64,000 nucleotides of DNA from an uncultured Isoptericola sp. (GTDB lineage: Bacteria; Actinomycetota; Actinomycetes; Actinomycetales; Cellulomonadaceae), in the NCBI GenBank assembly GCA_947497265.1, contig CANMFP010000001.1, positions 248,001-312,000 of the forward strand, given 5' to 3'. Under the pieces are notes generated by a model. It worked only from the letters and a program-made list of their open reading frames with translations, was not told where the DNA came from and did not search any database. Below are positions 4,057-23,402 of this stretch, piece by piece. Numbering within the stretch: the first letter of the stretch is position 1; each line of letters opens with the position of its first letter. The position numbers were made by a program, and so were the translations under genes.

Positions 4057-5574
4057 ATGGCGGACTACGTCCTCGCCATCGACCAGGGCACGACGAGCTC
4101 GCGTGCCATCGTCTTCGACCACTCGGGACGCAGCGTCTCGACCGGCCAGATCGAGCACGACCAGATCTTTCCCCGGGCCGGCTGGGTCGAGCACAACGCC
4201 GAGCAGATCTGGAACAACGTCCGCGAGGTGGTCGGACTGGCGCTGACCCGCGGCAACATCTCGCACGAGGATCTCGCTGCGGTCGGTATCACCAACCAGC
4301 GTGAGACCGCCGTGGTGTGGGACAAGAACACCGGCAAGCCGGTCTACAACGCGATCGTCTGGCAGGACACCCGTACCCAGGCGATCGCCGAGGAGCTCGG
4401 CGGCGACGAGGGCCCCGACAAGTACAAGTCGATCGTCGGCCTGCCGCTGGCGACGTACTTCTCCGGCCCGAAGATCAAGTGGATCCTCGACAACGTCGAC
4501 GGCGCCCGTGAGGCCGCGGAGAAGGGCGACCTGCTGTTCGGCAACACCGACACGTGGGTCGTGTGGAACATGACCGGCGGCCCCGAGGGCGGCGTCCACG
4601 TCACCGACGTCACCAACGCCTCGCGCACCATGCTCATGGACCTCGACACCCTGAGCTGGCGCGAGGACATCGCGGCCGACATGGGCATCCCGATGTCGAT
4701 GCTGCCCGAGATCCGCTCCTCGTCCGAGGTGTACGGCCGCGGCCGTCCGCGCGGCATGATCCCCGGCGTGCCGATCGCCGGCATCCTCGGCGACCAGCAG
4801 GCCGCGACCTTCGGCCAGGCGTGCTTCGAGGTCGGCACCGCCAAGAACACCTACGGCACCGGCAACTTCATGCTGCTCAACACCGGTACCGAGAAGGTGC
4901 CCTCGGAGAACGGCCTGCTCACCACGGTCTGCTACAAGATCGGTGACGCCGACCCCGTCTACGCCCTCGAGGGGTCCATCGCCGTCACCGGGTCCCTGGT
5001 CCAGTGGCTGCGCGACAACCTCGGCCTGTTCGCGGACGCCCCGGACATCGAGTACCTGGCCGGCAAGGTCGAGAACAACGGTGGCGCGTACTTCGTCCCG
5101 GCCTTCTCCGGCCTCTTCGCTCCGTACTGGCGTCCCGACGCCCGCGGTGCGCTCGTCGGCCTGACCCGGTTCGTCGACCGCAACCACATCGCACGCGCCG
5201 CCCTCGAGGCGACCGCGTTCCAGACCCGTGAGGTCATGGACGCGATGAAGGCGGACTCCGGCGTGGAGCTCACCGAGCTGAAGGTCGACGGCGGCATGGT
5301 GGCGAACGAGCTGCTCATGCAGTTCCAGGCCGACCAGCTCGGGGTCGACGTCGTCCGCCCGGAGGTCGCCGAGACGACGGCGCTCGGTGCCGCGTACGCG
5401 GCGGGCATCGCCGTCGGCTTCTGGCAGGGCGAGTCCGACGTCACCGAGAACTGGGTGGAGGGCAAGCGCTGGACGCCGTCGATGGCGGAGGACGAGCGCG
5501 AGCGTCTCTACCGGCAGTGGAAGAAGGCCGTCACCAAGACCTTCGACTGGGTGGACGAGGACTCCGGCGAGTAG
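4057..5574 (+). CDS. glpK: Glycerol kinase
   Basis: ATP-dependent kinase of 505 residues that phosphorylates glycerol to sn-glycerol-3-phosphate, trapping what GlpF admits. The FGGY/ribokinase-like two-lobed fold is complete. The phosphate-1 motif DQGTTSSR is at residues 9-16 and the glycerol-binding NQRET at 80-84. YFSGPKIKW and the catalytic-Asp region [10 protein letters not shown] follow. The second-lobe adenosine motif [14 protein letters not shown] lies near residue 410. AAAGGAG precedes the ATG. A strong hairpin follows the stop at 5594-5633. A paralogous but N-terminally replaced copy lies at 8208-9698. Confidence 0.96.
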
Positions 5575-8207: not shown

Positions 8208-9698
8208 GTGAGCATCACCTCGACCTCCGAGTACACGATCCCCGGCGCCCACGTCACCGACCGCACCCTCACGGTCCCTCTCGACTGGTCCGCCCTCGAC
8301 GACGCCCGCACGCTCTCGCTGTTCGCGCGCGAGGTCGTCGCGCCACAGCGCCGGCACGACGACCTGGCGCTGAGCCGCGGCAACATCTCCCACGAGGACC
8401 TCGCCGCCGTCGGCATCACCAACCAGCGCGAGACCGCCGTCGTGTGGGACAAGAACACCGGCAAGCCCGTCTACAACGCGATCGTGTGGCAGGACACCCG
8501 CACCCAGGCGATCGTCGACGAGCTCGGCGGCGACGACGGGCCCGAGAAGTACAAGTCGGTCGTCGGGCTGCCCCTGGCCACGTACTTCTCCGGGCCGAAG
8601 ATCAAGTGGATCCTCGACAACGTCGAGGGCGCCCGCGCCGCCGCCGAGAACGGCGACCTGCTGTTCGGCAACACCGACACCTGGGTGCTGTGGAACATGA
8701 CCGGTGGCCCCGACGGCGGTGTGCACGTCACCGACGTCACCAACGCCTCGCGGACCATGCTCATGGACCTCGACACGCTGAGCTGGCGCGAGGACATCGC
8801 CGCGGACATGGGCATCCCGATGTCCATGCTGCCCGAGATCCGCTCCTCCTCCGAGGTGTACGGCCGGGGCCGCCCGCGCGGCATGGTGCCGGGCGTGCCG
8901 ATCGCCGGCATCCTCGGCGACCAGCAGGCCGCCACGTTCGGCCAGGCGTGCTTCGAGGTCGGTACCGCGAAGAACACCTACGGCACCGGCAACTTCATGC
9001 TGCTCAACACCGGCACCGAGAAGGTGCCCAGCGAGAACGGCCTGCTCACCACGGTCTGCTACAAGATCGGCGACGAGGCTCCGGTGTACGCACTGGAAGG
9101 GTCCATCGCGGTCACGGGCTCGCTGGTGCAGTGGCTGCGGGACAACCTGGGCTTCTTCGCGGACGCCCCGGACGTCGAGTACTACGCGGCCAAGGTCGAC
9201 GACAACGGTGGGGCGTACTTCGTGCCCGCGTTCTCCGGGCTGTTCGCCCCCTACTGGCGTCCGGACGCCCGCGGCGCCCTGGTGGGGCTGACGCGGTACG
9301 TCAACCGGAACCACATCGCCCGCGCCGCGCTGGAGGCGACGGCCTTCCAGACGCGCGAGGTCATGGACGCGATGAACGCCGACTCCGGCGTCGACCTCAC
9401 CGAGCTGAAGGTCGACGGCGGCATGATCGCCAACGAGCTGCTCATGCAGTTCCAGGCGGACCAGCTCGGGGTCGACGTCGTGCGTCCCAAGGTCGCCGAG
9501 ACGACTGCGCTGGGTGCGGCGTACGCCGCGGGCCTCGCCGTCGGCTTCTGGGAGAGCACGCAGGACGTGGTCGACAACTGGGTGGAGGGCCAGCGCTGGA
9601 CGCCGCAGATGGACGACGACGAGCGCGAGCGGCTCTACCGGTCCTGGAAGAAGGCCGTCACCAAGACGTTCGACTGGGTGGACGAGGACGCGCAGTAG
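8208..9698 (+). CDS. Chimeric protein: hydrolase N-terminus fused to glycerol kinase lacking its phosphate-1 motif
   Basis: A 496-residue open frame built from two genes. Residues about 6-53 match the start of the alpha/beta hydrolase encoded at 22086 (SEYT-PG-HVTDR...VPLDWSA-DD-RTLS-F-RE), roughly 70% identical by eye. From residue 53 it is GlpK, aligning with GlpK residue 61 to its end, with only scattered changes. Glycerol-binding [14 protein letters not shown] and the catalytic GDQQAA are kept. DQGTTSSR, the ATP phosphate-1 loop, is gone. Many synonymous differences from the 4057 copy argue against a recent assembly duplicate. It is therefore likely inactive as a kinase; it could be a relic, a glycerol sensor, or a partner of intact GlpK. 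A hairpin follows at 9720-9753. Confidence 0.85.
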
Positions 9699-9811: not shown

Positions 9812-10516
9812 ATGGTTGAGAGCGCGGTGGTGCCGAGCGATGCCGGCCCCGTACCGGTCCAGATCATCGTGGTCCACGTCGATACTCTGACAACCCCGCT
9901 CGCAGCGAGCCGATTGAGCGTGGTCGAGCGCGCTCGAGTGCAGAGGTTCCGTCACTCGCAGGACCGTCAGGTGCACGCAACGGCAGCACTCCTGGTCCGA
10001 GCGATCGCCGGACGGGCACTCGGGGTCGCCCCGGGGTTGGCGACCATCACCCGACGATGCCCAGGTTGCGGGGGCCCGCACGGGGCGCCATACGTCGACG
10101 GCGCTCCCCTGTTGTCGGTCAGCCACTGCGACGGGCTGGCCGTCGTGGCCTCCTGCGCGCTGCCGGTCGGCGTCGACGCCGAGCCGGCCGACCGCGACGG
10201 CCTGCTGGCGATCACCGGGATGCTGCTCCATCCAGACGAGGAGGTGCACGACCCCGCGGATCTCCTCCGCACGTGGGTCCGCAAGGAGGCGGTGTCCAAG
10301 GCGACCGGGGTCGGGCTGACCGTGCCGCTCACCGAGATCCGGGTCACGGCTCCCCACGAGCCCCCCGCCGTCCTGCGGTACGGTCCGCGACCTGAGCTCG
10401 CGATCGCGCTCGCCGACGTTCCCGTCAGCGGCGCGATCGTGAGTGTCGCCGTCCAGACCGACCGCCCGCTCGACGTGCAGGTAATGGACGGCGCCGACCT
10501 CGTGACGGAGCGCTGA
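9812..10516 (+). CDS. 4'-phosphopantetheinyl transferase, Sfp type
   Basis: A 234-residue enzyme that transfers phosphopantetheine from CoA to the conserved Ser of carrier proteins. The two family signatures are clear: VGVDAEP at about residues 115-121 (the Mg-binding V-G-I/V-D) and WVRKEAVSKATGVGL at about 154-168 (W-x-x-KE-x-x-x-K). An upstream SVSHCDG gives the S-x-S-H motif. It stands convergent to the minus-strand NRPS/PKS operon and presumably activates the PCP (near Ser 989) and ACP (Ser 494) there. The ATG has CATGCT six bases upstream and no ribosome site. Confidence 0.92.
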   Translation: MVESAVVPSDAGPVPVQIIVVHVDTLTTPLAASRLSVVERARVQRFRHSQDRQVHATAALLVRAIAGRALGVAPGLATITRRCPGCGGPHGAPYVDGAPLLSVSHCDGLAVVASCALPVGVDAEPADRDGLLAITGMLLHPDEEVHDPADLLRTWVRKEAVSKATGVGLTVPLTEIRVTAPHEPPAVLRYGPRPELAIALADVPVSGAIVSVAVQTDRPLDVQVMDGADLVTER

Positions 10517-10556
10517 ACCCCGGTGGAGCCGCGTCCCGGCGCACCCGCACCGGACG

Positions 10557-11480
10557 TCACACCGTCGCCGCCGCGAGGCGCGATGCCGCCATCGCAGCGT
10601 TGCGCACGAGGATGCCGAGCATGAGTGGCCCGACGCCGCCGGGGATGGGAAGCAACGTCCCGGCGACCCGCGCCACGGACGGTGTGTCGACACCGCCGCG
10701 CAACACGGGCACCGGTGGTGCGCCGTCCGTCCGCTCCTGGAAGCCGACGAGTACCGGGTTGAAGTCGATGACCGTCGCACCGGGTTTCACCCAGTCTCCG
10801 GTCACGAGCTCTGGCTCTTCCAGGCTCACGATCAGGACATCGGCACGTCGAGCCAGCTCCCGCGCGTCGGGATGCTCGAACGGCACGATCGCGGCCGGAG
10901 AGCTCAGGGGGAGAACTGCTGGCGCTGCGGCGCGGATGACCGTATGCGCCACGGCGTTGGACGCCATGAGCCGTTCCTGCGTGAGGATCACGATGTTCTG
11001 TCGGTCGAGCGTGATGCCGAGCTCTGCGAGCGCCAGCACGATGGCCTCGCCGACGAGCGGGAGGCGAGCGTCTGGTCGAGGCCCGTTCGAGGCGAGCAGT
11101 GCCGCCGTGTGCTCAGGGTGCAGCCCTTCGAGCTCCTTGACGCTGTCGATCAGCGGGAGGACGGCGGTCAGGGACAGGTGCTCGGGGAGCGGCATCAGCA
11201 CCATCACACCGTGAACGTCCGGGTCGTCGCTCTGCTCGGTCACGACGGCTGCGAGCTGCTCAGCGCTCGCGTCCTCGGGAAGCCGGACGTCAACGGTTAG
11301 TACGCCATAGCTGGCGAACGTACGCAGGTGCAGGCGGCGGTTGATCTCGACCATTGGGTCGCGGCCCGTGACTGTCACGAGGGCGACGGTCGGCCGGGTT
11401 CCGGCGGCAGCGGCAGCGGCCAACGCCGCGCTGGCCAGTTGGGGTTGCAGGGCCTTGCCCTCGATGATGGTGGCGGTCAT
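10557..11480 (-). CDS. FolD-like protein with a rewritten active site
   Basis: A 307-residue protein with the overall FolD (methylene-tetrahydrofolate dehydrogenase/cyclohydrolase) shape. The folate-side KELEGLHPEHTAALL, the Rossmann-side ADVLIVSLEEPELVTGDWVKPGATVIDF and the C-terminal LLPIPGGVGPLMLGILVRN are all recognisable. The catalytic set is not. Against E. coli FolD, the Tyr/Lys of YVxxK become Asn47 and His51, the Gln of VQLPLP becomes Leu95, the Asp of KDVDG becomes Glu118, and GxSxxxGxP is replaced by TQERLMASN. It is thus unlikely to be ordinary FolD and is probably a specialised pathway enzyme. Last gene of the NRPS/PKS operon; GAGGAA precedes ATG 11480. Confidence 0.75.
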   Translation of the reverse strand: MTATIIEGKALQPQLASAALAAAAAAGTRPTVALVTVTGRDPMVEINRRLHLRTFASYGVLTVDVRLPEDASAEQLAAVVTEQSDDPDVHGVMVLMPLPEHLSLTAVLPLIDSVKELEGLHPEHTAALLASNGPRPDARLPLVGEAIVLALAELGITLDRQNIVILTQERLMASNAVAHTVIRAAAPAVLPLSSPAAIVPFEHPDARELARRADVLIVSLEEPELVTGDWVKPGATVIDFNPVLVGFQERTDGAPPVPVLRGGVDTPSVARVAGTLLPIPGGVGPLMLGILVRNAAMAASRLAAATV

Positions 11481-11534
11481 GGGGTTCCTCACTCTTCATC
11501 TGGTTGAGTCGAGCGGACGGACAGTGCTGGCGGT

Positions 11535-12047
11535 TCAGGGCACGAGCGCGCGGGCGGTTCCCAGCGAGAGTGCGATCGCGGGCAGGGAGCAGAACGCTCC
11601 GACCGCTCCGGCGACGACGGCCGAGCCACGCCGGAGACCCGACGCGCGGCAGACGGCGACGATCGTGAGCGCGGCGGCGGCGGTCATGGCGGGGGACGAG
11701 TACACGCCGGGGTTGGACGAGCACGTCGCGAGTGCGCGTCCCAGGTGCATGGCACCGTTGAGACCGAGCGCCGACGCCGCAGCAACGATGACCGCGGCTC
11801 GACGAGCCGAGATCCGCCGGCGCCGGGCGGGCACCACCGCGACGGCGACGGCGACCGTCAGAAGCATGGTCGCCACCGCGAATCGGTCTCCGCGGTACAG
11901 CTCGGAGTCAAGGCCGAGCCGGGCCGCAAGTGCCGGGTCGATCGGTGCCTGCGTGCTCGCGCTCAGGATCTCCTCGAGATTGTGGGCGATGAACACACCG
12001 ATCAGCGCCCAGCGCATCGCCCGCTCCGGAACGGGACCAGTGCTCAT
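11535..12047 (-). CDS. HXXEE-domain membrane protein
   Basis: A small integral membrane protein of 170 residues with about five hydrophobic segments. The motif H-N-L-E-E (His22, Glu25, Glu26) lies in the first helix and a second conserved-type His occurs in LNGAMHLGR, the pattern of the HXXEE family, thought to hold a metal or hydrolytic site in the membrane. The ATG follows the KS-ACP-TE stop after one base (TGA-G-ATG), so it is tightly coupled to the assembly line. As I recall, the mutanocyclin pathway uses a small membrane acylase (MucF) to remove the N-acyl chain; a similar role here would fit but is inference. Confidence 0.75.
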   Translation of the reverse strand: MSTGPVPERAMRWALIGVFIAHNLEEILSASTQAPIDPALAARLGLDSELYRGDRFAVATMLLTVAVAVAVVPARRRRISARRAAVIVAAASALGLNGAMHLGRALATCSSNPGVYSSPAMTAAAALTIVAVCRASGLRRGSAVVAGAVGAFCSLPAIALSLGTARALVP

Positions 12048-12048
12048 C

Positions 12049-14505
12049 TCACGCGAGGGCGTCACGGACAGCCCTGCCGATGGTGGACACCGCGATCGGG
12101 TCGCGCACGATCCCGTAGTGATCTCCGCGCACGGAGACGTAGACGACTGGGCCGCCGACGTAGCGCTCCCACTCGTGGACTGACGTCATCGCGATACCCA
12201 ACCGGTCGAGGATCTCCTGCGGCTCCGGGTCGGAGGCCTCGAGGACGAGCACCGGGCAGTCGATGGTCGTGTCTGGCGTCCACCTCTTGAGCGCCCCATG
12301 GTTCTCCCTCCAGACGGTGAAGAACCGGCCGAGCTCGGCGCGCATCCCCGCTGACCACGCGGGCTCGGCGACGAGGTCGAGGATCTCGCGACCCGTCCGC
12401 GCCGCGTGAGGGTCCGCGGAGAAGCGCAGGCCTGGGAAGAGCGTCCGGAGCAACGTCGGGAATGCTGCCAGGTAGTCTGCGTCGGTGCAGTCGCCCGAGG
12501 TGTAGGCGTGCGGGGGGTGCGAGTCGATGAGGACGAGGTGCTCGACCTTCTCGCCCTCCGCCGCGAGCTGCAGGGCCATCTCCGCCGCCAGATTCCCCCC
12601 GAACGAGTACCCGCCTAGCAGGTAGGGCCCCTCGGGACGGTGCTCGCGGATCGCCGCCAGGTACCGTGCCGCGAGTTGGCGCAGGCTGAGCTCGGACCCG
12701 ACCAGGTCTTCGGGGAAGTACAGCCCGATGACACCGAGGTGTGGGTCGAGACGGCGCGCGATGTCGAGGTAGCACGTCGTGGTGCCGCCGGCCGGGTGGA
12801 CGAGGAAGATCTCGCGGTCAGGATGCTCGCTCACGGTGACCAGGTTGCGCGCGCTCGGGACGTTGGGCAGGACGATCGGAACCAGTTGAGCCGCCGACGC
12901 GCAGTCCTGCATCGGCGTGAGCAGATCGGCGAGCGCCACGGTGGTCCTTGCCCGCTCCACCTCGGCGAACCCGACGGTGAGGCCAAGGTCACGCAGCTCG
13001 GCGACGAGGTCGATAACAGCCAGGGAGTCGGCACCTGCATCGAAGAGATCGTCAGCGATGTCGAGGGCGGGTTCCTGGAGCACGTCCCGGGCGACCCGCA
13101 GGATGGTGTCGACAAGCGGACGTGACGCCGTCACGGGCGCCACGTTCGGCACTACCGCGGCTGCCGTGGCGAGGACGGACTCTCTGGGCACGCTCGCCAC
13201 CCAGTGCCGGGTCCGCGCGTATGCGGGGGCTGCAGTGTGCTCACGCGGCGGCAGGCCCGCCTCCCGGTGCAAGACCACGTGTACGTTGGTGCCCCCCATT
13301 CCGAACGAGCTCACCGACGCAGTACGGTCGCCGTCCGGCAGCGGGACGGGCACTGTCGGGATCGTCAGCGCACCGAGCTCGAGGAGCGGGTTCGCCGTGG
13401 CGAAACCGGGCATCGGTGGCACGGTACCGTGGTTCAGAACCAGGGCAGCCTTGACCAGACCGGTCACTCCTGCGGCGGCGTCGGCGTGGCCCAGGGTCGC
13501 CTTGATGCTCCCCAAGTAAGCGCCACCGGGAATTGCTGCACCCAGGGCGCGCAGCTCGATCGGATCACCGAGCGCCGTCCCGGTCCCGTGCGTCTCCACG
13601 TAGTCGACCCCGTCGATCCCGGCGTCGGCGAGCGCCGCCGCGATGACCGCGCGCTGACCTGCGACCCCGGGTGAAGGGAACCCGGGCTTGCCGTTGCCGT
13701 CGTTGTTCGCGGCCGACCCCGCAAGCAGCGCGTAGACCCGCCGGGGGTCAGCGTCCTGCACCCGGGTCAGCACGACCGCGGCCGCCCCGTTGGCCTTGAC
13801 CGTGCCGTCGGCAGCGGCGTCGAAGGGGCGGCACACGCCTGTCGAGCTGAAGATGCCCCCCGCACGCTGGAGGTACCCCCCGAGGAACGGCAGCGAGATC
13901 GACACGCCGGCGACGACGGCGACGTCGCACTCGCCGCGCTCGATCGAGGCGCGTGCGAGATGGACGGCGAGGAGCGAGCTGGAACAGGCCGACTGGACCA
14001 CCACGGACGGACCGCGCAGGCCGAGCGTGTAGCTCGTCCGTGTGCACAGGAAGTCCTTGTCGTTGGCGAGCATGGCGCTGAAGTTGAGGTCCGTCTGCGA
14101 CCACAGACCAGCCTCGGTCACCGGCCCGGGCAGATACGTGCTCGTGCTCGAGGAGCCGAACACCCCCACCTGCACGTCGTCCGCCGGGTCGATCCCGGCG
14201 TCGTGCAGCGCGGCGTGCACCGTCTCGAGGAACACACGGTGCTGCGGGTCCATCAGAGCGGCATCGCGCGCCGTGATACCGAACCGTTCGGCGTCGAACG
14301 CGTCGTGGTCACGCAACGCGGACCGCACCGCGACGAAGGCGGGGTCGTCGATCTGCTCCGGCGTGTACCCCGCGCGCAGCGAGTCCTCGCGTGGGACGGG
14401 CTCGAAAGTGGTGGCGCCGGATCGGACGAGCTCCCACAGCTCGCGCGGATCGTCGGCCCCGGGGAGCCTGCAACCAATGCCAACCACGGCGAGGTCCGCG
14501 TTCAT
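12049..14505 (-). CDS. Polyketide synthase module KS-ACP-TE without acyltransferase
   Basis: An 818-residue synthase. The ketosynthase (residues 1-415) has Cys174 in QSACSSS, His306 in VETHGTGT and His340 in KATLGHADAAAG, a complete triad. The carrier domain (about 460-530) holds Ser494 in DAGADSLAV. The thioesterase (about 560-818) has Ser634 in GGYSFGG and a C-terminal His796 in RGDHYG. No acyltransferase or ketoreductase is present, so malonyl must be loaded in trans. The start overlaps the NRPS stop as ATGA. The order KS-ACP-TE after a C-A-PCP protein matches the reutericyclin and mutanocyclin synthetases, in which one malonate extends an N-acyl aminoacyl chain that cyclises to a tetramic acid. 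Confidence 0.93.
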   Translation of the reverse strand: MNADLAVVGIGCRLPGADDPRELWELVRSGATTFEPVPREDSLRAGYTPEQIDDPAFVAVRSALRDHDAFDAERFGITARDAALMDPQHRVFLETVHAALHDAGIDPADDVQVGVFGSSSTSTYLPGPVTEAGLWSQTDLNFSAMLANDKDFLCTRTSYTLGLRGPSVVVQSACSSSLLAVHLARASIERGECDVAVVAGVSISLPFLGGYLQRAGGIFSSTGVCRPFDAAADGTVKANGAAAVVLTRVQDADPRRVYALLAGSAANNDGNGKPGFPSPGVAGQRAVIAAALADAGIDGVDYVETHGTGTALGDPIELRALGAAIPGGAYLGSIKATLGHADAAAGVTGLVKAALVLNHGTVPPMPGFATANPLLELGALTIPTVPVPLPDGDRTASVSSFGMGGTNVHVVLHREAGLPPREHTAAPAYARTRHWVASVPRESVLATAAAVVPNVAPVTASRPLVDTILRVARDVLQEPALDIADDLFDAGADSLAVIDLVAELRDLGLTVGFAEVERARTTVALADLLTPMQDCASAAQLVPIVLPNVPSARNLVTVSEHPDREIFLVHPAGGTTTCYLDIARRLDPHLGVIGLYFPEDLVGSELSLRQLAARYLAAIREHRPEGPYLLGGYSFGGNLAAEMALQLAAEGEKVEHLVLIDSHPPHAYTSGDCTDADYLAAFPTLLRTLFPGLRFSADPHAARTGREILDLVAEPAWSAGMRAELGRFFTVWRENHGALKRWTPDTTIDCPVLVLEASDPEPQEILDRLGIAMTSVHEWERYVGGPVVYVSVRGDHYGIVRDPIAVSTIGRAVRDALA

Positions 14506-17500
14506 CGCCCGCTCCTCTCCGCGACGGCGCCGGCCGCGACATGCGCAGCAAGCTCCGCCGGGGTCGCGTGCTCGAAGAGGTCCACGAGCGAGAGTCCGGT
14601 CAGCCCGAGATCACCGCGCAACCGCTCGTGCACGGCCATGACGTGCATCGATGTACCCCCCACGTCCATGAACCGGTCGTGGATGCCCACCGCGCCGGCA
14701 CCGATCACGTCCCCCCACACCCCGGCGATCCGGGCGGCGAGCCCGCCCGCCGGGCGTGGGACGTCGTCGTGCATCGTGGCCCGGGGAGACGGCAGCGCCG
14801 CGAGGTCAGGCTTGCCGTTGTGGTTCGTGGGGACGACCGGGACGATCCTGATCGCGGCCGGCACCATGTACCCGGGGATGCGCTCAGCGACGGCCTCCCG
14901 CAGCGAGGGCACGGTCAGGTGCGCGCCAGGTGCGGGGGCGACCCACGCGGCGAGGAAGGGCTCGGCTCCCGTCGCCTCGACGAGCCGGACCACGACCGCC
15001 GAGACGTCGGGATCAGCCCCGAACGCGGCCTCGACCTCACCGAGCTCAATGCGGTAGCCGCGAAGCTGCACCTGGTCGTCCACGCGGCCCACGAACACGA
15101 GCTCGCCGTCCGAGGCGCGCAGCACCTTGTCGCCCGTCACGTAGGCGCGACGGGCGCCCTCGTCGCCACGTACCCAGCGAAAACGGTCGGCGGTGAGATC
15201 CGGCCGCCCGAGGTACCCCTCGGCGAGGCCGGTGCCGGTGACCAGGAGCTCACCGGCGATCCCGTCGGGCACGGGTCGTCCGAACGGGTCGACCACGAGA
15301 ACGTCAAGGTGGCGCAACGGAGCACCGATCAGGCTGCGGTGCTCGAAGGTGACCTCGTCGTCGGTGAGCTCGCGGGCAGTCACGTGCACGGTGGTCTCCG
15401 TGATGCCGTACATGTTAACGAGCCTGGCGCCCCAGCCCTGAGTCGAGACCCAGGGCCGCAGGTCGGCGGGATAGAGCGCCTCGCCACCGAACACGACCAG
15501 CCGGACGTGGGGCAGCGCGCGGGCATCGTGGCTCAGGACGGACGTCAGTCGGCGGAATGCGGACGGAGTCTGATTGAGCACGGTGACGCGCTCGCGCCGC
15601 AGGAGGGCGACGAACGACTCCGGGTTGGCGACCTCCGTCGCGGACGGCACGACGAGGGTGGCCCCGACGGTCAGCGCCCCGAAGACTTCCCATACCGAGA
15701 AGTCGAACGCGAGCGAGTGGAACACGCACCACACGTCGTCGGCGCCGACGTTGAGCTCGTCGGTGGAGTCGAGCAGGTCGACGACGTTCGAGTGCGGGAC
15801 GACGACACCCTTGGGCTCACCCGTGGAGCCCGACGTGAAGATGACGTAGGCGGTGTCCGTCCCGGCGGGTCGGCGCCGAGGATCCGGTCGACGATCCCTC
15901 TGTGGGGCGTCGGGATCGAGGACGAGCCGGGCCCCGGACAGTGCCGTGGCGCCGTGGAGCAGCCCGGTCCCGTCCTCGGTGACCACCACCGGATCGGCGC
16001 CGTAGGCGGCGGCGACCCGGTCGACAATGAGACGCGCACGCGCAGCGGGAGCAGACGGGTCCACCGGGACGTGCACCCGACCGGACGCCATCACGCCCAG
16101 CAGCACGGTCACGGCGTCGACGGACTTGGGCATCGCGACCACGACCGCCTCTCCCGCGCCGGCCCGGTCGAGCGCCACGCCGACCCCGTCCATGCGCGCG
16201 ACCAGCTCGGCGTACGTGAGGTCGCCGTGCTCCCCGCGCAGCGCGACCCTGTCAGGGTTGGCCCGGGCGGCGGCGAAGATGCGCGACACCACGGTGTCCG
16301 AGGCATCGGTCTGGGCCGATTCCTGCTCGTCGGCGACCACGGGGGACGCCACGAACACCGAGCCGGTGACGACGGGCGCGTCCGGCGTCGATACGATCGC
16401 GTCCAGCGCCGTGACGACCAGGCTGCCCGGTGAGGCGGCGAGCAGATGCTCGGCCGCGCTCACCTCGACGAGGTAGCCCTTGGGCTCGTCGGCCGCCGTC
16501 ATGACGAACGGGTAGGAGATTGCCGCGCGCTCGATCGGGACCGACGTCACCCGGGCGCCGTCGATGTCCAGCACGAGGCCCTTCTTGTAGAACGTCACGG
16601 CGTTGTCGAGCCCGGGGTAGGCGCGGCCACGCAGGAGGGTCGATTGCGCACCCGTCAGGTCCACGCCCTGGTTGGCCTGCAGGAGTCGTATGCCTGCCTT
16701 GACCTGCGTGCACAGCTCCCACCACGTCTGACCTGCCGTGATGGTGACCGGCAGGGGAAGAGTGTTGACGTAGAACCCGACCGCCGACCGAGCGCGGTAT
16801 CCGGAACGGTTACCGAGCGGCACCCCGAGCACCACCGTCTCGGTACCCGAGAGTCGCTGGAGCGTCGCCGCGTACGCCGCGAAGAACACCGTCGCCGCAC
16901 CGAACTCCGCCACGGCCCGGCTGCCACGGATGCGTTCGGCGTCTGTCCCCTCGTAGCGGACGACCTCACGTCGGCCGTTGATCCGGCCGTCGATGCGCGG
17001 CGCCGCCAGCGAGGCGTGCGTGAACGCGTCGACCGGGGCGAGGAGCGCATCGTACGACTCCAGCGCGCGAGGTAGCACCGGAGTGGGCACCGTGGTGCCC
17101 GGGTGCTCCGCCACGGTCGACAGCAGCTCGAGCCAGTTCTCGTTCTGGCTGCGGTAGAGATCGCCGACGGCCCCCATCACCCGGAAGAACGAGTAGGCGT
17201 CACCGATGATGTGTGCCCCGATCAGGCGCATCCACAACGAGTCGCGCGACCGGAAGAACCGGACGTGGAGCTGGTGCGGGTCGCTCGGGTCGATCGGGCC
17301 CCGAGCCAGCTCCTCTGCTGCCTGGGCGGCGATGAGCCGATCCGTGTCGTTGCCGACCGGCGCCGGCTCGACCTGCACGTCGGGCTCGACAGCGCCGACG
17401 ACCGCCTCGACCGCACCGTCCCGGGAGACGAAATGTGTCGCGATGCCCGGGCTCGCACCCAGGACGGCCCGCATCGCCCGGACCAGTCGATCGACATCGA

Positions 17501-17618
17501 GGTCACCGTCGAACCGGTACACGAAGCCGAGGTCGAACGACGGGTCGGCAGGGTGAGCTGCATGGTGCATGTACAGGTTGCGCTGCTGGAACGTTGCAAG
17601 GTACCTGCGATCGGTCAT
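14502..17618 (-). CDS. Nonribosomal peptide synthetase module C-A-PCP, predicted threonine-activating
   Basis: A 1038-residue synthetase. The condensation domain (about 1-430) has AHIIGDA at 134-140, the HHxxxDG motif with its second, catalytic His135 and Asp139 kept, plus VGFYVNTLPLPV near 280. The adenylation domain (about 445-945) has TSGSTGEPKG and NHNGK. Its ten specificity residues read D638 F639 W642 N681 V708 G710 M735 V743 H744 K935, a known threonine code. The PCP (about 955-1035) carries the Ser in DVGGTSMHV. An N-terminal C domain suggests N-acylation of threonine by a fatty acyl donor. ATG 17618 has GAAAGGA upstream and overlaps the MFS stop (ATGA). Confidence 0.93.
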   Translation of the reverse strand: MTDRRYLATFQQRNLYMHHAAHPADPSFDLGFVYRFDGDLDVDRLVRAMRAVLGASPGIATHFVSRDGAVEAVVGAVEPDVQVEPAPVGNDTDRLIAAQAAEELARGPIDPSDPHQLHVRFFRSRDSLWMRLIGAHIIGDAYSFFRVMGAVGDLYRSQNENWLELLSTVAEHPGTTVPTPVLPRALESYDALLAPVDAFTHASLAAPRIDGRINGRREVVRYEGTDAERIRGSRAVAEFGAATVFFAAYAATLQRLSGTETVVLGVPLGNRSGYRARSAVGFYVNTLPLPVTITAGQTWWELCTQVKAGIRLLQANQGVDLTGAQSTLLRGRAYPGLDNAVTFYKKGLVLDIDGARVTSVPIERAAISYPFVMTAADEPKGYLVEVSAAEHLLAASPGSLVVTALDAIVSTPDAPVVTGSVFVASPVVADEQESAQTDASDTVVSRIFAAARANPDRVALRGEHGDLTYAELVARMDGVGVALDRAGAGEAVVVAMPKSVDAVTVLLGVMASGRVHVPVDPSAPAARARLIVDRVAAAYGADPVVVTEDGTGLLHGATALSGARLVLDPDAPQRDRRPDPRRRPAGTDTAYVIFTSGSTGEPKGVVVPHSNVVDLLDSTDELNVGADDVWCVFHSLAFDFSVWEVFGALTVGATLVVPSATEVANPESFVALLRRERVTVLNQTPSAFRRLTSVLSHDARALPHVRLVVFGGEALYPADLRPWVSTQGWGARLVNMYGITETTVHVTARELTDDEVTFEHRSLIGAPLRHLDVLVVDPFGRPVPDGIAGELLVTGTGLAEGYLGRPDLTADRFRWVRGDEGARRAYVTGDKVLRASDGELVFVGRVDDQVQLRGYRIELGEVEAAFGADPDVSAVVVRLVEATGAEPFLAAWVAPAPGAHLTVPSLREAVAERIPGYMVPAAIRIVPVVPTNHNGKPDLAALPSPRATMHDDVPRPAGGLAARIAGVWGDVIGAGAVGIHDRFMDVGGTSMHVMAVHERLRGDLGLTGLSLVDLFEHATPAELAAHVAAGAVAERSGR

Positions 17619-19225
17619 GAGTACGTCCTTTCGTTGTCGATCGACGATGTGCTCTCGGGGACGGGCCGAGTCGCCGTCCCCCGCGCCAGGATGACGGCGG
17701 TCGCGACGGCGACGAGCACCGCGAAGGCTGCGGTCGCGAGGAATCCTTGGCCGTAGGCGACGACCTGCGCCTCGAACCGGAAGTCCGCCACAAGCTGCGC
17801 GACGATCGCCAGGCCGTCGGCCGAGCTCGGATCCGCACCCGCGGCGGCGAGCCCACGCCCGGTCGCCGCGGCGAGGTCCGCGCGCGACCCCTCGAACGAG
17901 TCCGCCGCGACTCGCGAGGCGAACGAGCTGAGGAACGCGACTCCGAGCGACGCGCCGACCTGCTGGCTGGTGTTCGCCACCGCGGAAGCGAGGCCGCTGC
18001 GGTCGGGACCGATGCCGTGGGTCGCCGACGACATGCCCGGCGCCATGACGATCCCGAGCCCCAGCCCCACCACGACCATCGGCCCGAGGAGGGTGCCCAC
18101 GAAGTCGTCGTCCGTCGTCAAGCCGGAGAGCCAGACGAACCCCGCCGCCTGCACGAGCGCACCCAGCGGATACGTGACGCGCAGCCCGAACCGCGGGACG
18201 AGCAGCCGGGTGCTGAGCGCGGCGGCGACGACGAGCCCTCCGACCATCGGGAGGAACGACAACCCGGTGCGCAGGGGGCTGTGCCCGAGCCCGTACTGCA
18301 GGTAGAAGGTGAGATATATGGAAGAGCCCATCTGGGCGAACCCGACGAGCAGGATGACGAGGTAGGACGAGCCGCGTGTCGCATCGCGAATGATCCACAG
18401 CGGCAGGAGCGGGTCGGTCGCGGTGCGTTCCCACGCGACGAAGAGGACCAGCAGGACTATGCCCGCTCCCAGGCACCCCAGAGTGGACGGGTGAGACCAG
18501 CCGAGCTCCTCGGCCCGGGACAGCCCCAGGACGAGGGCACAGATCCCGGCGGAGCCGAGGACGAGACCCGCCACGTCGGTGAACGCGCGATCGCGAACCG
18601 GCCCGGGTGCACCTCGCAAGGTGACCAGCGCGACGATCACGGTCCCCAGGACGAGCGGCACGTTCACCAGGAAGCACGCCCGCCAGGACGACAGCTCCGT
18701 CAGCACCCCGCCGAGCACAAGCCCGAGCGCGGCCCCCGCGCCCGCAACGGATCCGAAGACGGCGAACGCGCCGGCTCGCCCCCGCTGATCGGGGAACGCC
18801 GAGTTCATCAGCGACAGGTTGGTCGGGGCGAGCAGTGCGGCGGCGACTCCCTGCGCGACCCGCGCGGCGAGAAGCATCTCGAGTGAGGTCGCGCAGCCGG
18901 CGGCAAGGCTTGCGACACCGAACCCGGCGAGTCCGATCATGAACGACCGACGAATGCCGACGCGCTGCGAGAGGAGTCCTCCGACCAGCAGGAGCGACCC
19001 GAACGCCAGGGTGTATGCAGTGATGGTCCACTGCCGCCCCGTATCCGCGAAGCCGAGTCCCTCCTGTGCGTCCGGCAGCGCGACGGCGACGATGGTCGTG
19101 TCGAGGACAATGATCACCTGGGCCAGACACGCGCACAGGATCAGTGCGCGTCGGGTTCCCGACCCCCGGCCGGACACCCGTGCGCTCGTCACCCCGATGT
19201 CGACCGGTCTCGATCGTGCTGACAT
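17615..19225 (-). CDS. MFS multidrug exporter, DHA2 (EmrB/QacA) family
   Basis: A 536-residue transporter with about 14 hydrophobic segments. Motif A appears as GGLLSQRVGIRRSF in loop 2-3. The opening LDTTIVAVALPDAQ is the D1 signature of the 14-TM drug:H+ antiporters, and motif C is present as AGAGAALGLVLGG in helix 5. It is the first gene of the NRPS/PKS operon and overlaps the NRPS start by four bases, so it most likely exports the product and gives self-protection. AGCAGGA precedes ATG 19225, and TAGGTT at 19256-19261 (minus) is a plausible -10 for the whole operon. Confidence 0.9.
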   Translation of the reverse strand: MSARSRPVDIGVTSARVSGRGSGTRRALILCACLAQVIIVLDTTIVAVALPDAQEGLGFADTGRQWTITAYTLAFGSLLLVGGLLSQRVGIRRSFMIGLAGFGVASLAAGCATSLEMLLAARVAQGVAAALLAPTNLSLMNSAFPDQRGRAGAFAVFGSVAGAGAALGLVLGGVLTELSSWRACFLVNVPLVLGTVIVALVTLRGAPGPVRDRAFTDVAGLVLGSAGICALVLGLSRAEELGWSHPSTLGCLGAGIVLLVLFVAWERTATDPLLPLWIIRDATRGSSYLVILLVGFAQMGSSIYLTFYLQYGLGHSPLRTGLSFLPMVGGLVVAAALSTRLLVPRFGLRVTYPLGALVQAAGFVWLSGLTTDDDFVGTLLGPMVVVGLGLGIVMAPGMSSATHGIGPDRSGLASAVANTSQQVGASLGVAFLSSFASRVAADSFEGSRADLAAATGRGLAAAGADPSSADGLAIVAQLVADFRFEAQVVAYGQGFLATAAFAVLVAVATAVILARGTATRPVPESTSSIDNERTYS

Positions 19226-19255
19226 TCCTGCTCCCCTCTCCCGTGGTCTTTCACG

Positions 19256-19261
19256 AACCTA
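19256..19261 (-). promoter_or_regulatory. -10-like hexamer TAGGTT of the NRPS/PKS operon
   Basis: TAGGTT sits 31 bases upstream of the exporter ATG in the 184-bp divergent space shared with the LuxR gene. A TACGCT hexamer at 19380-19385 faces the other way. Confidence 0.4.
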
Positions 19262-19409
19262 GGAGCGTCGACGCGCCCGTGACGGACCGCGTGGGGAATC
19301 CTGCGGTCGACCTGCGGACCCGAAGCGGAGAACCGCATCGCGACCTCCCCGAACCTGCGACCGCGACGGCCTGCGTGCGTACGCTATGGTGCGTCCGGAG
19401 GGGGTTGCG

Positions 19410-22013
19410 ATGGACTGGGTGCGCGAGGAGTCCTTCACCAAGGTCGCAGCACTGGTCACGGCGGAACCGGAGCAGTGCGTCCTGGTCGTCGGCGACTCGG
19501 GGATGGGCAAGACACGGTTCGCCCGCATCCTGGCCGACGGCGTCGAACTCCCGGGTGCCCTGGTCACCGCGACCTCGGCCGAACGAACGTGGCCCTACGC
19601 TGGGGTCTTCGCTGTGCTCGCCGCGCTGAGCGAGCCGCGGGTCGCGCAGGCCGTGCAGGTCGCGGTCCGCGGTCGTGACGCGACACCCTTCGCCGTCGGA
19701 AAGCTGGTCCTCGCACAGCTCCACCAGTTCCCACAGCCCGCACAGTGCCTGATCGTCGACGACGCCCATCTGCTCGACCCCGAGAGCCGTAAGGTGCTCG
19801 GCTATCTGGCGCGCCGGCTGCGCGGGACGCGGCTACGGCTCGTCCTCGCCCTGAGATCCCTGGGCGACGACGGGGCGTTCGACGGCCTGGAGCATGTCGA
19901 GCTGGCACCTCTCGACTACGCGCGCACGGTGTCCCTGGTGCGGTCCGAGGCCGGCCCTGACACTCGCGCGGCCGTCGTCGAGCTGGTCGCGATGCACGCC
20001 GAGGGCCATCCCCGCCGCGCCGTCGAGATCCTGCGTCGGCTCGGCCACAGCCAGCTCACCGGATCTGACGCGCTGACCTTCCCGCTGCGCATGGGGCCGA
20101 ACACGGAGCGCGCCGTGCGACAGCAGCTCGGCGAGCTCGACGAGGACTCGGCGCGCGCGCTAGCGGCGTTGTCGACCCGTCGTGTGCATCCCGTCGCGGT
20201 GCTCCCCCAGGGCGGCCGAGACTACGCGGGTCTCGTCGCTCGCGGGCTGGCACGGGTCAAGGTGGACCAGATCTGGATCGCCGAACCGGTCGTCCGTTCG
20301 GTGGTCTACTGGTCCATGAGCGCCACCGAGCGGCGCGACCTGCACGCTGAGTTCGCGGCCTGCTGCGCGGCGGACGAGTCGAGCAGGACCTGGCACGCGA
20401 GCTTCGTCGACATCTCCGACGAGTGGGGACGCCAGCTGCAGGTGATGGCAATCGCGCTGACGCGCGAGGGCGACTTCGACACCGCGCTCGAGGTCGCGGA
20501 ACGCTCCGTGCTGCTCGGGGTGCCTGACGACGACGGCCACCAGTACCTCGCCCTCGCGAACGGGTTCTTCTACGAGTGCGCCTTCGGCCTCGCGGAGAGG
20601 TACGCGGACCTGGCCGACGCCTCGAACCTCGGGCCTGCGGCCCGGCTCCGTCTGGTGAGCCTGCGGGTGCGGTTCGAGTACCTGCGCACGCAGAACGTGC
20701 TCTCGGCGCTCGCCGCCGACGCGGTGCGACGGTTCGCGGGTGACGCGCCCGACGACGCCGTACTGCTGCTCGCGCTACTTGCAATCTACTGTGCCGAACG
20801 CTGGGAGCTCGACGCGGCCGTGCGTCACCTCGACGCGCTGCCTCCGTGGCTCGCGCGGGCGTCGGAGGAGAGCATCGCCATCGGGACTGTCGCACGCGCA
20901 CTCACGACGGCGATGACGAGCGGACGCACGGATCTGCCCGCGCCCGAGCTGCGAGGGACTATCGGCGACCACACCGTCGCGACGACGACGCTGCTGTCTC
21001 ACGGCCGGGCACTGACCTACGCCGAGCGGTACGGGCAGGCGCGACATCTGTTCGACATGCTCCTGTCGAACCAGGTCTCGCTCGACCCGCTGTGGCTCGT
21101 CACAACCCGTCTCTACTCGGTCGAGAACGACCGGCTCGCGGCGAACTTCCACGCCGCTCTCGCCACCATGTCCGCCGTCGTCCACGACGATCGGACGAAA
21201 GACCTGCACCGGCCCTTCCGAGCGTTGCACGAGCTGTGGTACTGGACGGAGCTCGGCGATCCGGATCAAGCCGCCGACGTGCTCGAGCGCGTGCACGCGC
21301 ACGGACGGCACAACGTCGCCATCTCGGCCCGCGCCGACGCGTACCTCGGCTCGCGCGCCCTGCACGCCGGGGACCTCGACCAGGCCGTGCGACTGCTGAT
21401 GCGCAGCAAGGTCGAGTGCGCGCACATGCTCAACCCCGCTCTGCACCGCATCGACGGTGACCTCATCGAGGCCCTGGTCCGGTCCGGCGACCTACGGGGG
21501 GCCCGGGCCGTTGCCGACAATCTCGCCGAGCGGGCGGCACGAGTCCCGTCTCGGTGGGCCGCTTCGGTGCTGAAGCGAGCACGAGCACTCACCACGACCG
21601 GTGACGAGTCCATCCGGCTCTTCGACGACGCGGTCGGTTCGTTCAATCCGGTGGACTCCGAGTACGAGCAGGCTCGCACGCTCGCTGCCTATGCGCGCGC
21701 CCTGGAGGGGGGCGGGTCGGAGGAACTTCAGCGCCAGACGGCCGCCTCCGCGGCCGCGCTCTTCAGTCGGATGGGGCTGCCGTGGTGGGCCGAGCAGGTC
21801 GGTGCACCGACCGGTGAACCGCCTGACCCTCAGCTCACAGCCGACGAGAGTCGCGTGGTGGAGCTGGTGGTCGGTGGGATGCGCAACCGGGACGTCGCGC
21901 AAGAACTCTTCGTCTCCGTGCGCTCCGTCGAGGCGCGATTGACGGCGATCTATCGCAAGGTGGGTGTGCGTTCACGCGCGGAGCTCGTCACGTGGACGCA
22001 CGGCAGTAACTGA
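19410..22013 (+). CDS. LuxR-family ATPase regulator (LAL type), cluster-situated
   Basis: An 867-residue regulator. Residues about 25-35 hold a Walker A loop (GDSGMGKT) and about 110-118 a Walker B (CLIVDDAH). The long middle part is alpha-helical and TPR-like. The last 65 residues form a GerE/LuxR helix-turn-helix (LTADESRVVELVVGGMRNRD...VSVRSVEARLTAIYRKVGV). Large ATPase-LuxR proteins of this kind usually activate secondary-metabolite operons. It diverges from the exporter-NRPS-PKS operon, which makes it the likely pathway-specific switch. The start was set at ATG 19410 because GGAGGGGG precedes it; an in-frame ATG at 19386 abuts the TACGCT promoter hexamer. Confidence 0.9.
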   Translation: MDWVREESFTKVAALVTAEPEQCVLVVGDSGMGKTRFARILADGVELPGALVTATSAERTWPYAGVFAVLAALSEPRVAQAVQVAVRGRDATPFAVGKLVLAQLHQFPQPAQCLIVDDAHLLDPESRKVLGYLARRLRGTRLRLVLALRSLGDDGAFDGLEHVELAPLDYARTVSLVRSEAGPDTRAAVVELVAMHAEGHPRRAVEILRRLGHSQLTGSDALTFPLRMGPNTERAVRQQLGELDEDSARALAALSTRRVHPVAVLPQGGRDYAGLVARGLARVKVDQIWIAEPVVRSVVYWSMSATERRDLHAEFAACCAADESSRTWHASFVDISDEWGRQLQVMAIALTREGDFDTALEVAERSVLLGVPDDDGHQYLALANGFFYECAFGLAERYADLADASNLGPAARLRLVSLRVRFEYLRTQNVLSALAADAVRRFAGDAPDDAVLLLALLAIYCAERWELDAAVRHLDALPPWLARASEESIAIGTVARALTTAMTSGRTDLPAPELRGTIGDHTVATTTLLSHGRALTYAERYGQARHLFDMLLSNQVSLDPLWLVTTRLYSVENDRLAANFHAALATMSAVVHDDRTKDLHRPFRALHELWYWTELGDPDQAADVLERVHAHGRHNVAISARADAYLGSRALHAGDLDQAVRLLMRSKVECAHMLNPALHRIDGDLIEALVRSGDLRGARAVADNLAERAARVPSRWAASVLKRARALTTTGDESIRLFDDAVGSFNPVDSEYEQARTLAAYARALEGGGSEELQRQTAASAAALFSRMGLPWWAEQVGAPTGEPPDPQLTADESRVVELVVGGMRNRDVAQELFVSVRSVEARLTAIYRKVGVRSRAELVTWTHGSN

Positions 22014-22073
22014 CGCGCGCCAGCCGGTAGATGGTCGCCGACAGCGAAAGTCGGGCATCGCATGCAACAAGCC

Positions 22074-22079
22074 TACGCT
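22074..22079 (+). promoter_or_regulatory. Leaderless -10 hexamer TACGCT
   Basis: TACGCT, six bases, then GTG 22086 of the alpha/beta hydrolase. Confidence 0.6.
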
Positions 22080-22085
22080 TGCCCG

Positions 22086-23402
22086 GTGAGCGAATACACC
22101 CTGCCCGGAGTCCACGTCACCGACCGCTCCGTGCGCGTCCCGCTCGACTGGTCCGCGCCCGACGACGACCGCACGCTGAGCGTGTTCGTCCGCGAGCTGG
22201 TCGACCCCACGAAGCGCGACGACGACCTGCCCCTGCTGGTGTTCCTCCAGGGTGGACCGGGCGGCAAGGGTCCGCGCCCCACGGGCGCCGAGGGTTGGGT
22301 CGGCGAGGCGCTCAAGCGGTTCCGGGTGGTGCTGCTGGACCAGCGCGGCACGGGACGCTCGACGGCGGTCCGCGCCGGTGCGCTCACCGCGCTCGGCGAC
22401 GGCGAGGCCCAGGCCGAGTACCTGGCGCACTTCCGGGCCGACTCGATCGTGCTCGACGCCGAGCACGTGCGCCGCACGCTCTACGACGGGCGGCGCTGGT
22501 CCACGCTCGGCCAGTCGTACGGCGGGTTCCTCACCCTGACCTACCTGTCCCTCGCTCCCGAGGGTGTGGCGGCGTCGTACGTGACCGGAGGCCTCGCCGG
22601 GCTGACGGCGAGCGCCGACGAGGTCTACCGGCGCACCCAGCCGCGCGTCGCCGCCAAGAACGCGCTCTACCGCGAGCGATATCCCGCCGACGTCGAGCGC
22701 GTCGCCCGGATCGCCGACCGGGTCGCGGCCGGGGACGTCCGCCTGCCCGGCGGCGACCTGCTGAGCGTCGAGCGGTTCCAGTCCCTCGGCATGGCGTTCG
22801 GCATGGGGCCCGGCTTCGAGCGCGTGCACTGGATCGTCGACGAGGCGTTCGACGACCTGTCCGCACCGGTCGGCGTCGACACCCTCACCGACACGTTCCT
22901 CGCCGAGGTCGAGGCCGCCACCGGGTTCGCGACCAACCCGCTGTACGCCGTCCTGCACGAGTCCATCTACGCGCAGCAGGGGACCGGCCCGACGGCGTGG
23001 TCGGCGCAGCGTGTGCGCGACGGCGACCCCGCGTTCGCCACGGAGGCCCGACCGCTGCTGTTCACCGGCGAGATGATCTACCCCTGGATGTTCGATCAGG
23101 TCGCGGCGCTGCGGCCGTTCCGGGCCGCCGCGGAGGCGCTCGCGGCCCGTGACGACTGGCCGGACCTGTACGACCTCGACGTGCTCGCCACCAACCAGGT
23201 GCCGCTGGAGGCGGCGGTCTACCACGACGACATGTTCGTCGACGCCGACCTGTCGCTGGACACCGTGGCCCGCGTGGGCAACGCGCGCGCCTGGGTGACC
23301 AACGAGTTCGAGCACGACGGGCTGCGCGCCGGCGACGTCTTCGCCCGGCTGGTCGAGCGACTCGACGCCCGCGGCGGCCCGCTCCCCGACGCCGCGGGGT
23401 AG
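22086..23402 (+). CDS. Alpha/beta hydrolase, proline iminopeptidase-like (S33)
   Basis: A 438-residue serine hydrolase of the prolyl aminopeptidase type, which removes N-terminal proline from small peptides. QGGPGG at about residue 55 is the oxyanion HGGPG motif. GQSYGG at about 141-146 carries the nucleophile Ser. A C-terminal FEHDG gives the His, and a helical cap domain separates them. Its N-terminus is closely matched by residues 6-53 of the chimeric protein at 8208, which shows where that piece came from. GTG 22086 was chosen by this match and by the TACGCT box six bases upstream; an in-frame ATG at 22062 has no ribosome site. Confidence 0.88.
   Translation: MSEYTLPGVHVTDRSVRVPLDWSAPDDDRTLSVFVRELVDPTKRDDDLPLLVFLQGGPGGKGPRPTGAEGWVGEALKRFRVVLLDQRGTGRSTAVRAGALTALGDGEAQAEYLAHFRADSIVLDAEHVRRTLYDGRRWSTLGQSYGGFLTLTYLSLAPEGVAASYVTGGLAGLTASADEVYRRTQPRVAAKNALYRERYPADVERVARIADRVAAGDVRLPGGDLLSVERFQSLGMAFGMGPGFERVHWIVDEAFDDLSAPVGVDTLTDTFLAEVEAATGFATNPLYAVLHESIYAQQGTGPTAWSAQRVRDGDPAFATEARPLLFTGEMIYPWMFDQVAALRPFRAAAEALAARDDWPDLYDLDVLATNQVPLEAAVYHDDMFVDADLSLDTVARVGNARAWVTNEFEHDGLRAGDVFARLVERLDARGGPLPDAAG

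Follow-up and report, generated by a model that had tools for sequence, protein, structure and literature searches.

In the mutanocyclin cluster (muc) of Streptococcus mutans, a tetramic acid is built by two proteins: a synthetase with condensation, adenylation and peptidyl carrier protein domains (C-A-PCP; MucD) and a polyketide synthase with ketosynthase, acyl carrier protein and thioesterase domains (KS-ACP-TE; MucE), both without an acyltransferase (AT) domain. MucE is reported to extend an N-acyl-leucyl unit with malonate and to close the ring by lactam formation (PMC10161427). MucF is described as an acylase that carries the HXXEE motif (PMC9112991); it removes the acyl chain, and deacylation of reutericyclin is reported for MucF and for 16 homologues (PMC10161427). 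The reutericyclin cluster (rtc) of Limosilactobacillus reuteri is given as homologous to muc (PMC9112991), and a mucF-like gene is stated to be missing from most rtc-type clusters (PMC10161427). The fungal tenuazonic acid synthetase TAS1 likewise follows a nonribosomal peptide synthetase–polyketide synthase route to a tetramic acid, as a single hybrid protein whose KS carries out the Dieckmann closure (PMC6694145, PMC10161427). A published search defined muc-like biosynthetic gene clusters by the core genes mucA-E (PMC10161427). The cluster considered here occupies positions 9812 to 22013 of a 64,000-nucleotide stretch of an uncultured Isoptericola sp. genome (contig CANMFP010000001.1; the whole stretch is called the window, and positions refer to it). 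On balance, its sequence points to a muc-like tetramate pathway that would use threonine in a MucD/MucE-type pair, with a product that is probably deacylated and a FolD-like protein that appears to be repurposed.

The cluster is real and intact-looking. It holds genes of the MucD, MucE, MucF and MucI kinds: what it shares with muc is the AT-less pair, the HXXEE protein and a DHA2-type exporter of the major facilitator superfamily (MFS). In contrast with muc, the window has no MucABC in its first 40 kb, an additional FolD-like gene, and a LuxR/AAA regulator in place of two TetR genes. The rtc cluster shares the two-protein synthetase architecture, its two synthetase proteins presumably being RtcN and RtcK; the window differs from it in having an HXXEE gene and in that RtcABC/MucABC-like genes are not found in its first 40 kb, where phmmer searches with MucA, MucB and MucC of Streptococcus macacae returned nothing. 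This agrees with a preliminary description of the DNA, which had noted that PhlABC-like (MucABC) genes are absent. The same queries (E 1e-4) find MucABC in 4 of 35 related loci, which were obtained by scanning, with a thioesterase profile, a genome collection described as covering 84,980 species; the scan rests on two peptide patterns, and relatives without them are missed. Unlike TAS1, the window has a separate KS-ACP-TE protein with its own TE.

Gene order and Pfam assignments agree with the layout first described: a minus-strand operon of exporter, C-A-PCP, KS-ACP-TE, HXXEE and FolD-like genes, with consecutive overlaps of 4, 4 and, assuming a GTG start for the HXXEE gene, 17 bases, and then a 54-base gap before the FolD-like gene. 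By coordinates and Pfam, a phosphopantetheinyl transferase (PPTase) and a LuxR-type ATPase regulator stand at its two sides.

9812..10516, plus strand: Sfp/HetI-type PPTase (Pfam ACPS 35.6 bits, cut-off 25)
10557..11480, minus strand: FolD-like protein, 307 residues (both FolD Pfam domains above cut-off)
11535..12065, minus strand: HXXEE membrane-type protein of the MucF family, probable N-deacylase (GTG start; Pfam HXXEE 34.3 bits, cut-off 25)
12049..14505, minus strand: KS-ACP-TE polyketide synthase without AT (Pfam ketoacyl-synt N and C, PP-binding, Thioesterase)
14502..17618, minus strand: C-A-PCP synthetase, 1038 residues from ATG (Pfam Condensation, AMP-binding at 254 bits, AMP-binding_C and PP-binding; NCBIfam)
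17615..19225, minus strand: DHA2-like MFS exporter that opens the operon (Pfam MFS_1 158.8 bits)
19386..22013, plus strand: large LuxR-type regulator with an AAA ATPase domain, transcribed away from the operon (Pfam AAA_16 and GerE)

All assignments of operon and flank proteins score above the Pfam gathering cut-offs. Against the NCBIfam models, the PPTase reaches 33.9 bits with 4PPT_HetI, far under the cut-off of 370, and the exporter 219.8 bits with efflux_EmrB, slightly under the cut-off of 230.2. The open reading frame at the C-A-PCP gene extends to 1544 residues, upstream through the exporter gene in a different frame; the 1038-residue form is used. The genome that contains the window comprises 3.77 Mb in 41 contigs.

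The assembly line and its amino acid

The adenylation domain of the C-A-PCP protein reads, by alignment, the specificity code DFWNVGMVHK, the code positions being set via motifs of the GrsA numbering. This code is tabulated as threonine (PMC9113097), and the variant DFWNIGMVHK is predicted to specify threonine (PMC3547906); threonine-type codes are described as varying at positions 278 and 299, with DFWNIGMVHK linked also to methylated threonine units (PMC12283262). On the strength of these printed assignments, threonine is the likely substrate and a modified threonine a possible one. Threonine had been named in the preliminary description, and the code bears this out: it is found unchanged in four sister clusters, one in Klugiella xanthotipulae, one in Cellulomonas uda and two in Leucobacter, and in 13 of the 31 related loci overall in which a code is readable, L031, L048, L051 and L052 having no strong C-A-PCP match. 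Three further relatives carry DFWNIGMVHK, DFWNVGMIHK and DFWNIGMIHK. The two Streptococcus muc-type loci (L036 and L037), in contrast, read DYFTFGLIIK, of leucine type.

The residues expected of a working assembly line are in place. In the C domain, H136 and D140 occupy the columns of H135 and D139 in the S. macacae protein; in S. mutans MucD, mutation of the residues of these numbers is reported to block mutanocyclin (PMC10161427). The KS-ACP-TE protein has all of C174, H306 and H340 in the KS, S494 in the ACP and S634, D661 and H796 in the TE. These active-site residues are identical in L036 and L037, and 32 of 33 rows retain them, the exception being L028, where the called reading frame stops before the ACP. 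No AT domain is among the Pfam matches of the operon proteins. The pairing of C-A-PCP with KS-ACP-TE, likened early on to MucD/MucE, thus holds in its domain order, by Pfam and by the description of those proteins in PMC10161427.

Each chemical step of the pathway is inferred by homology. The PPTase would prime the PCP and ACP to their holo forms, and the C domain would couple a fatty acyl starter to PCP-bound threonine. The KS would then extend the chain with malonyl-ACP; since no AT is encoded in the cluster, the malonyl transferase that loads it would be encoded elsewhere in the genome. Closure by the TE through the amide nitrogen (a lactam closure, not a Dieckmann one) would give N-acyl-5-(1-hydroxyethyl)pyrrolidine-2,4-dione, from which the HXXEE protein would cleave the acyl chain. 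The FolD-like protein may act on or bind the deacylated tetramate core, standing in the place of MucABC (C3 acetylation), while the MFS protein would export the product under control of the operon by the LuxR-type regulator.

The HXXEE and FolD-like proteins

The HXXEE gene, whose protein the preliminary description had left anonymous, overlaps the synthase gene and is kept in 4/4 sister clusters. Its product carries the motif as H28-N-L-E31-E32, followed by a second His and N-P-G, and belongs to the Pfam family of MucF. Seven HXXEE proteins of relatives, including those of S. macacae and Streptococcus orisasini, pass the Pfam cut-off when scanned singly. A profile made from seven proteins of this kind matches genes in 9 of the 35 relatives, and as its seven source proteins are among its matches, only L036, L039 and L043 are newly found. 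A search gave no PDB match for the HXXEE protein. It is likely, judging from its family, that this protein is an N-deacylase of the tetramate, and since the family is that of MucF, a later loss of the N-acyl group is probable. The N-acyl end product first proposed is therefore less likely than a deacylated one and, if the deacylation is right, would be an intermediate.

The FolD-like protein shares with FolD (methylenetetrahydrofolate dehydrogenase/cyclohydrolase) its two Pfam domains, its length and its two-domain fold. Its best PDB sequence match is 4a26, of the FolD family (E 2.6e-27); an AlphaFold2 model from a six-row alignment has a mean predicted local distance difference test score of 87.2, and its best Foldseek match is another FolD, 5o2a (E 5.2e-25, template modelling score 0.75 on the query). 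In contrast with FolD, the protein has the catalytic places and the loop that binds nicotinamide adenine dinucleotide phosphate (NADP) replaced, and its gene sits in a synthetase operon. With the best NCBIfam FolD model it scores 134 bits, where the cut-off is 396. In the alignment, N47, H51, L95 and E118 stand at the places of FolD Tyr50, Lys54, Gln98 and Asp121, the last of which is presumably also a functional place. Lys54 is described as essential for cyclohydrolase activity, Tyr50 as closing over the ligand and Gln98 as positioning Tyr50 (PMC5688156). The six FolD-like proteins found in such clusters, that of the window included, agree in these changes: His at Lys54, Leu at Gln98 and Glu at Asp121 in 6/6, and the NADP-binding loop (G-R/S motif) replaced in 6/6. 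For L030 one alignment gives a gap at Lys54, where a four-residue insertion lies, and two other alignments place His there. The Tyr50 place holds Asn in four, His in one and Ala in one.

Among 28 other FolDs, Lys54 is kept in 26, Gln98 in 27 and Asp121 in 27, the exceptions being L055 and L056. A tree computed without the Orenia remnant described below and without L057 (the same locus as L002) places the six cluster proteins on one side of a branch with 100/100 support and the 28 others on the other side; because of long branches, the positions of L030 and L043 within the group are unsure. The only ordinary FolD of the window genome (L058, G000:C5) is itself divergent, with 42-46% identity to those of most congeners, and is apparently unrelated to the cluster. 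Of the gene first listed as FolD-like, presence and both FolD domains are upheld; by its replaced catalytic residues and NADP loop, it does not read as an active FolD. The reading favoured here is that it has been repurposed, for tailoring or else for immunity.

Relatives of the cluster and rival readings

An intact FolD-like gene is present in 5 of the 35 related loci: C. uda, two near-identical Leucobacter loci, a Catenulispora metagenome-assembled genome and the alphaproteobacterium Brucella pituitosa. In all these clusters the clade with the changes at Lys54, Gln98 and Asp121 adjoins the C-A-PCP and KS-ACP-TE genes. An HXXEE gene accompanies it in 5/5, as in the window, and MucABC in 0/5. 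In Orenia metallireducens (L031, 2191-2394), a 67-residue FolD-like remnant, a decayed copy, lies right after the KS-ACP-TE gene. On a KS-ACP-TE tree of 32 of the 35 loci plus the window (L031, L051 and L052 omitted), FolD-like genes occur at three separate places, and the tree requires three changes for FolD and five for HXXEE. The probability of four FolD-bearing lineages arising by chance in 35 loci of ~20 kb is 1.6e-4, assuming 1.5 FolD per 4 Mb, with the loci partly shorter and the Orenia remnant counted as one of the four. In C. uda and both Leucobacter loci the exporter, C-A-PCP, KS-ACP-TE, HXXEE, FolD-like and LuxR genes stand together, and four of the six are present in Klugiella; the grouping is therefore not chance. 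The LuxR-type regulator has a homologue of 33-41% identity in 4/4 sister loci, and the PPTase has no tblastn match in these four.

The cluster is sparsely represented elsewhere. Among 396 genomes of the order (window included), one other full-length KS-ACP-TE is found (G415), with 62% identity, in the same family and another genus. A FolD profile searched against 396 genomes of the phylum (window included) gives 479 bits for the window and at most 195.6 for the 17 other matches listed, among which there is no further cluster-type FolD; all remaining genomes score under the cut-off. In plasmid records, the best 25 of 293 in the FolD search are ordinary FolDs throughout, and the best 15 of 1182 in the synthetase search are distant synthetases.

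Related pairs are set in other surroundings as well. A Streptomyces group (L026, L028, L029, L032-L034, L040 and L041) has C-A-PCP and KS-ACP-TE genes with the same threonine code, and no HXXEE or FolD match; Streptomyces relatives mostly read as threonine, in 8/8 Streptomyces rows, and Kitasatospora reads DVWNVAMVHK. In L026 and L033, genes that by eye resemble pyridoxal phosphate enzymes, aldehyde dehydrogenases or aminotransferases are seen; these tailoring genes differ, so the product probably differs. Pairs in Bacillus, Peribacillus and Paenibacillus (L023, L024, L035 and L038) read DPWQxGVIxK, and in L023 and L035 the pair is preceded by what looks by eye like a flavin monooxygenase gene. 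K. xanthotipulae has a second KS-ACP-TE gene upstream of its cluster (L132 13042-15645; L019 8123-10813), 42% identical to that of the window, with a LuxR-type gene following it and no C-A-PCP match beside it. In Catenulispora (L030, 11413-12456), a FabD-like malonyl transferase gene (by eye) adjoins the FolD-like gene and could supply the missing AT.

Several observations weigh against a muc-like threonine pathway with deacylation and a repurposed FolD-like protein. Identity to the muc-type proteins of S. macacae is 24% for C-A-PCP and 39% over the KS part, and in the KS-ACP-TE tree a branch with 100/97 support parts the Streptococcus rows from the window, so that the likeness to MucD/MucE first drawn stands mainly for architecture. 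The hhalign comparison of the window HXXEE group with the two Streptococcus muc-locus proteins gives, from few sequences, a weak match (probability 18.7%, E 0.0013). Tested on the tree, the association of FolD with HXXEE has three independent pairs and a median p of 0.5, which is not significant. The genes that Klugiella keeps include HXXEE and, in the stretch examined, neither exporter nor FolD-like gene; its genome has no FolD-like match, only an ordinary FolD. The FolD-bearing Catenulispora cluster reads the non-threonine code DMWTAGQMFK, and a tie of the FolD-like gene to threonine is not upheld. Finally, the free hydroxyl of threonine could compete in ring closure.

This last point has its own reading, in which the TE uses the hydroxyl to form a lactone, 5-acylamino-6-methyl-dihydropyran-2,4-dione, or the chain is simply hydrolysed. 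By chemical reasoning the hydroxyl is suitably placed for a six-membered ring, and the branch that parts the window KS-ACP-TE from the muc rows means that the TE outcome may differ; yet MucE makes a lactam (PMC10161427) and an N-acyl lactam is a suitable substrate for an HXXEE partner, so the lactone seems improbable. Export of the N-acyl threonine tetramate intact, with an HXXEE protein that is not its deacylase or serves only producer immunity, is unlikely too, though it has to be reckoned with. The faint profile match to the Streptococcus proteins speaks for it, as does a Ser before the N-P-G motif of the window protein where three aligned sisters have Tyr; MucF of S. mutans, moreover, is reported to limit self-toxicity, so an immunity role is possible (PMC9112991). 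Against intact export stand the overlap or abutment of HXXEE and synthase genes, the retention of HXXEE in all four sister clusters and the deacylation of reutericyclin by MucF and its homologues (PMC10161427).

In the case of the FolD-like protein, the product might instead hit FolD, with the copy serving as an insensitive enzyme or as a decoy that binds the product. Carolacton is known to target FolD, with resistance at K54 and Q98 (and G8), of which the first two are replaced here (PMC5688156). But the same source gives K54 as essential for the cyclohydrolase, the NADP loop is lost, and, because residues needed for catalysis are gone, the role of a substitute target is unlikely. The five other genomes with a FolD-like gene each have a separate, better ordinary FolD match (by identity). 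The ordinary FolD of the window genome keeps Tyr50, Lys54, Gln98 and Asp121 and is 93-96% identical in three congeners without a second FolD match. A substitute FolD was put low for the lost residues and for the ordinary FolD match in 7/7 genomes searched, and self-resistance as a whole appears decidedly improbable, though a binding decoy is conceivable. It would be a surprise if the protein were an active methylenetetrahydrofolate dehydrogenase/cyclohydrolase that supplies one-carbon units for the product: fold and both Pfam domains are those of FolD, but every one of the six cluster proteins departs from FolD at the Lys54, Gln98 and Asp121 places and in the NADP loop, and no methyl- or formyltransferase gene is recognised in the operon by Pfam.

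With a repurposed FolD-like protein as the preferred reading, its occurrence with two kinds of adenylation code, with HXXEE each time, and its absence from Klugiella make it likely that it performs a late, optional step on a shared core, or confers immunity. A bolder proposal, tentative and on the whole doubtful, is that this FolD-fold clade left folate metabolism and became a tetramate enzyme: with His for the catalytic Lys, Glu for Asp and no NADP site, it would bind the free five-membered tetramate ring in the place of the five-membered imidazoline of methenyl-folate and, once the N-acyl group is gone, catalyse a hydrolysis, an aldol-type reaction or an isomerisation, having moved with the synthetase pair between actinobacteria and a proteobacterium and decayed in Orenia.

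Origin of the island and significance

Two genes at the borders bear on how the cluster came to its present place.

8208..9698, plus strand: hydrolase::glpK chimera (insertion scar), the first 55 hydrolase codons fused to a foreign glpK 3' part
22062..23402, plus strand: complete alpha/beta-hydrolase-like gene (named by eye), the right border of the island

The N-terminal part of the chimera has its best match, 85% over 55 residues, in the hydrolase of congener G008, and the glpK part has 89.1% DNA identity over 1326 bp to the resident complete glpK (4057-5574). The complete glpK is nearest to that of G008 (92.9%), and the chimeric copy is 86.9-89.6% identical to each of 14 congeners, in a comparison that omitted 2 of 16 loci with short matches. 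In 14 of the 16 congeners a hydrolase match lies ~0.07-3.3 kb downstream of glpK, a spacing into which the cluster cannot fit; of the remaining two, one has glpK and hydrolase on separate contigs and the other has no hydrolase match. The chimera and the congener spacing together support acquisition of the entire island, with its PPTase, by lateral transfer. The simplest account of these sequences would be that the island came from a congeneric species that carried the cluster between glpK and hydrolase, with a homologous junction at the hydrolase end and an illegitimate one at the other. No donor of the island was found.

A limited literature search, covering the top 10-20 entries of each listing, gave no report of a threonine version of the pathway or of FolD in such a cluster ('FolD' partly matched 'fold'). 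The lactam-closing route to tetramic acids, recently described for leucine, would be extended to threonine, whose side chain gives the ring a new handle, and to actinobacteria of the Cellulomonas and Leucobacter types. The cluster would also offer a small system for asking whether a thioesterase picks nitrogen or oxygen. In addition, it draws attention to a FolD-fold family, encoded in biosynthetic operons, whose catalytic places are altered in a consistent manner.

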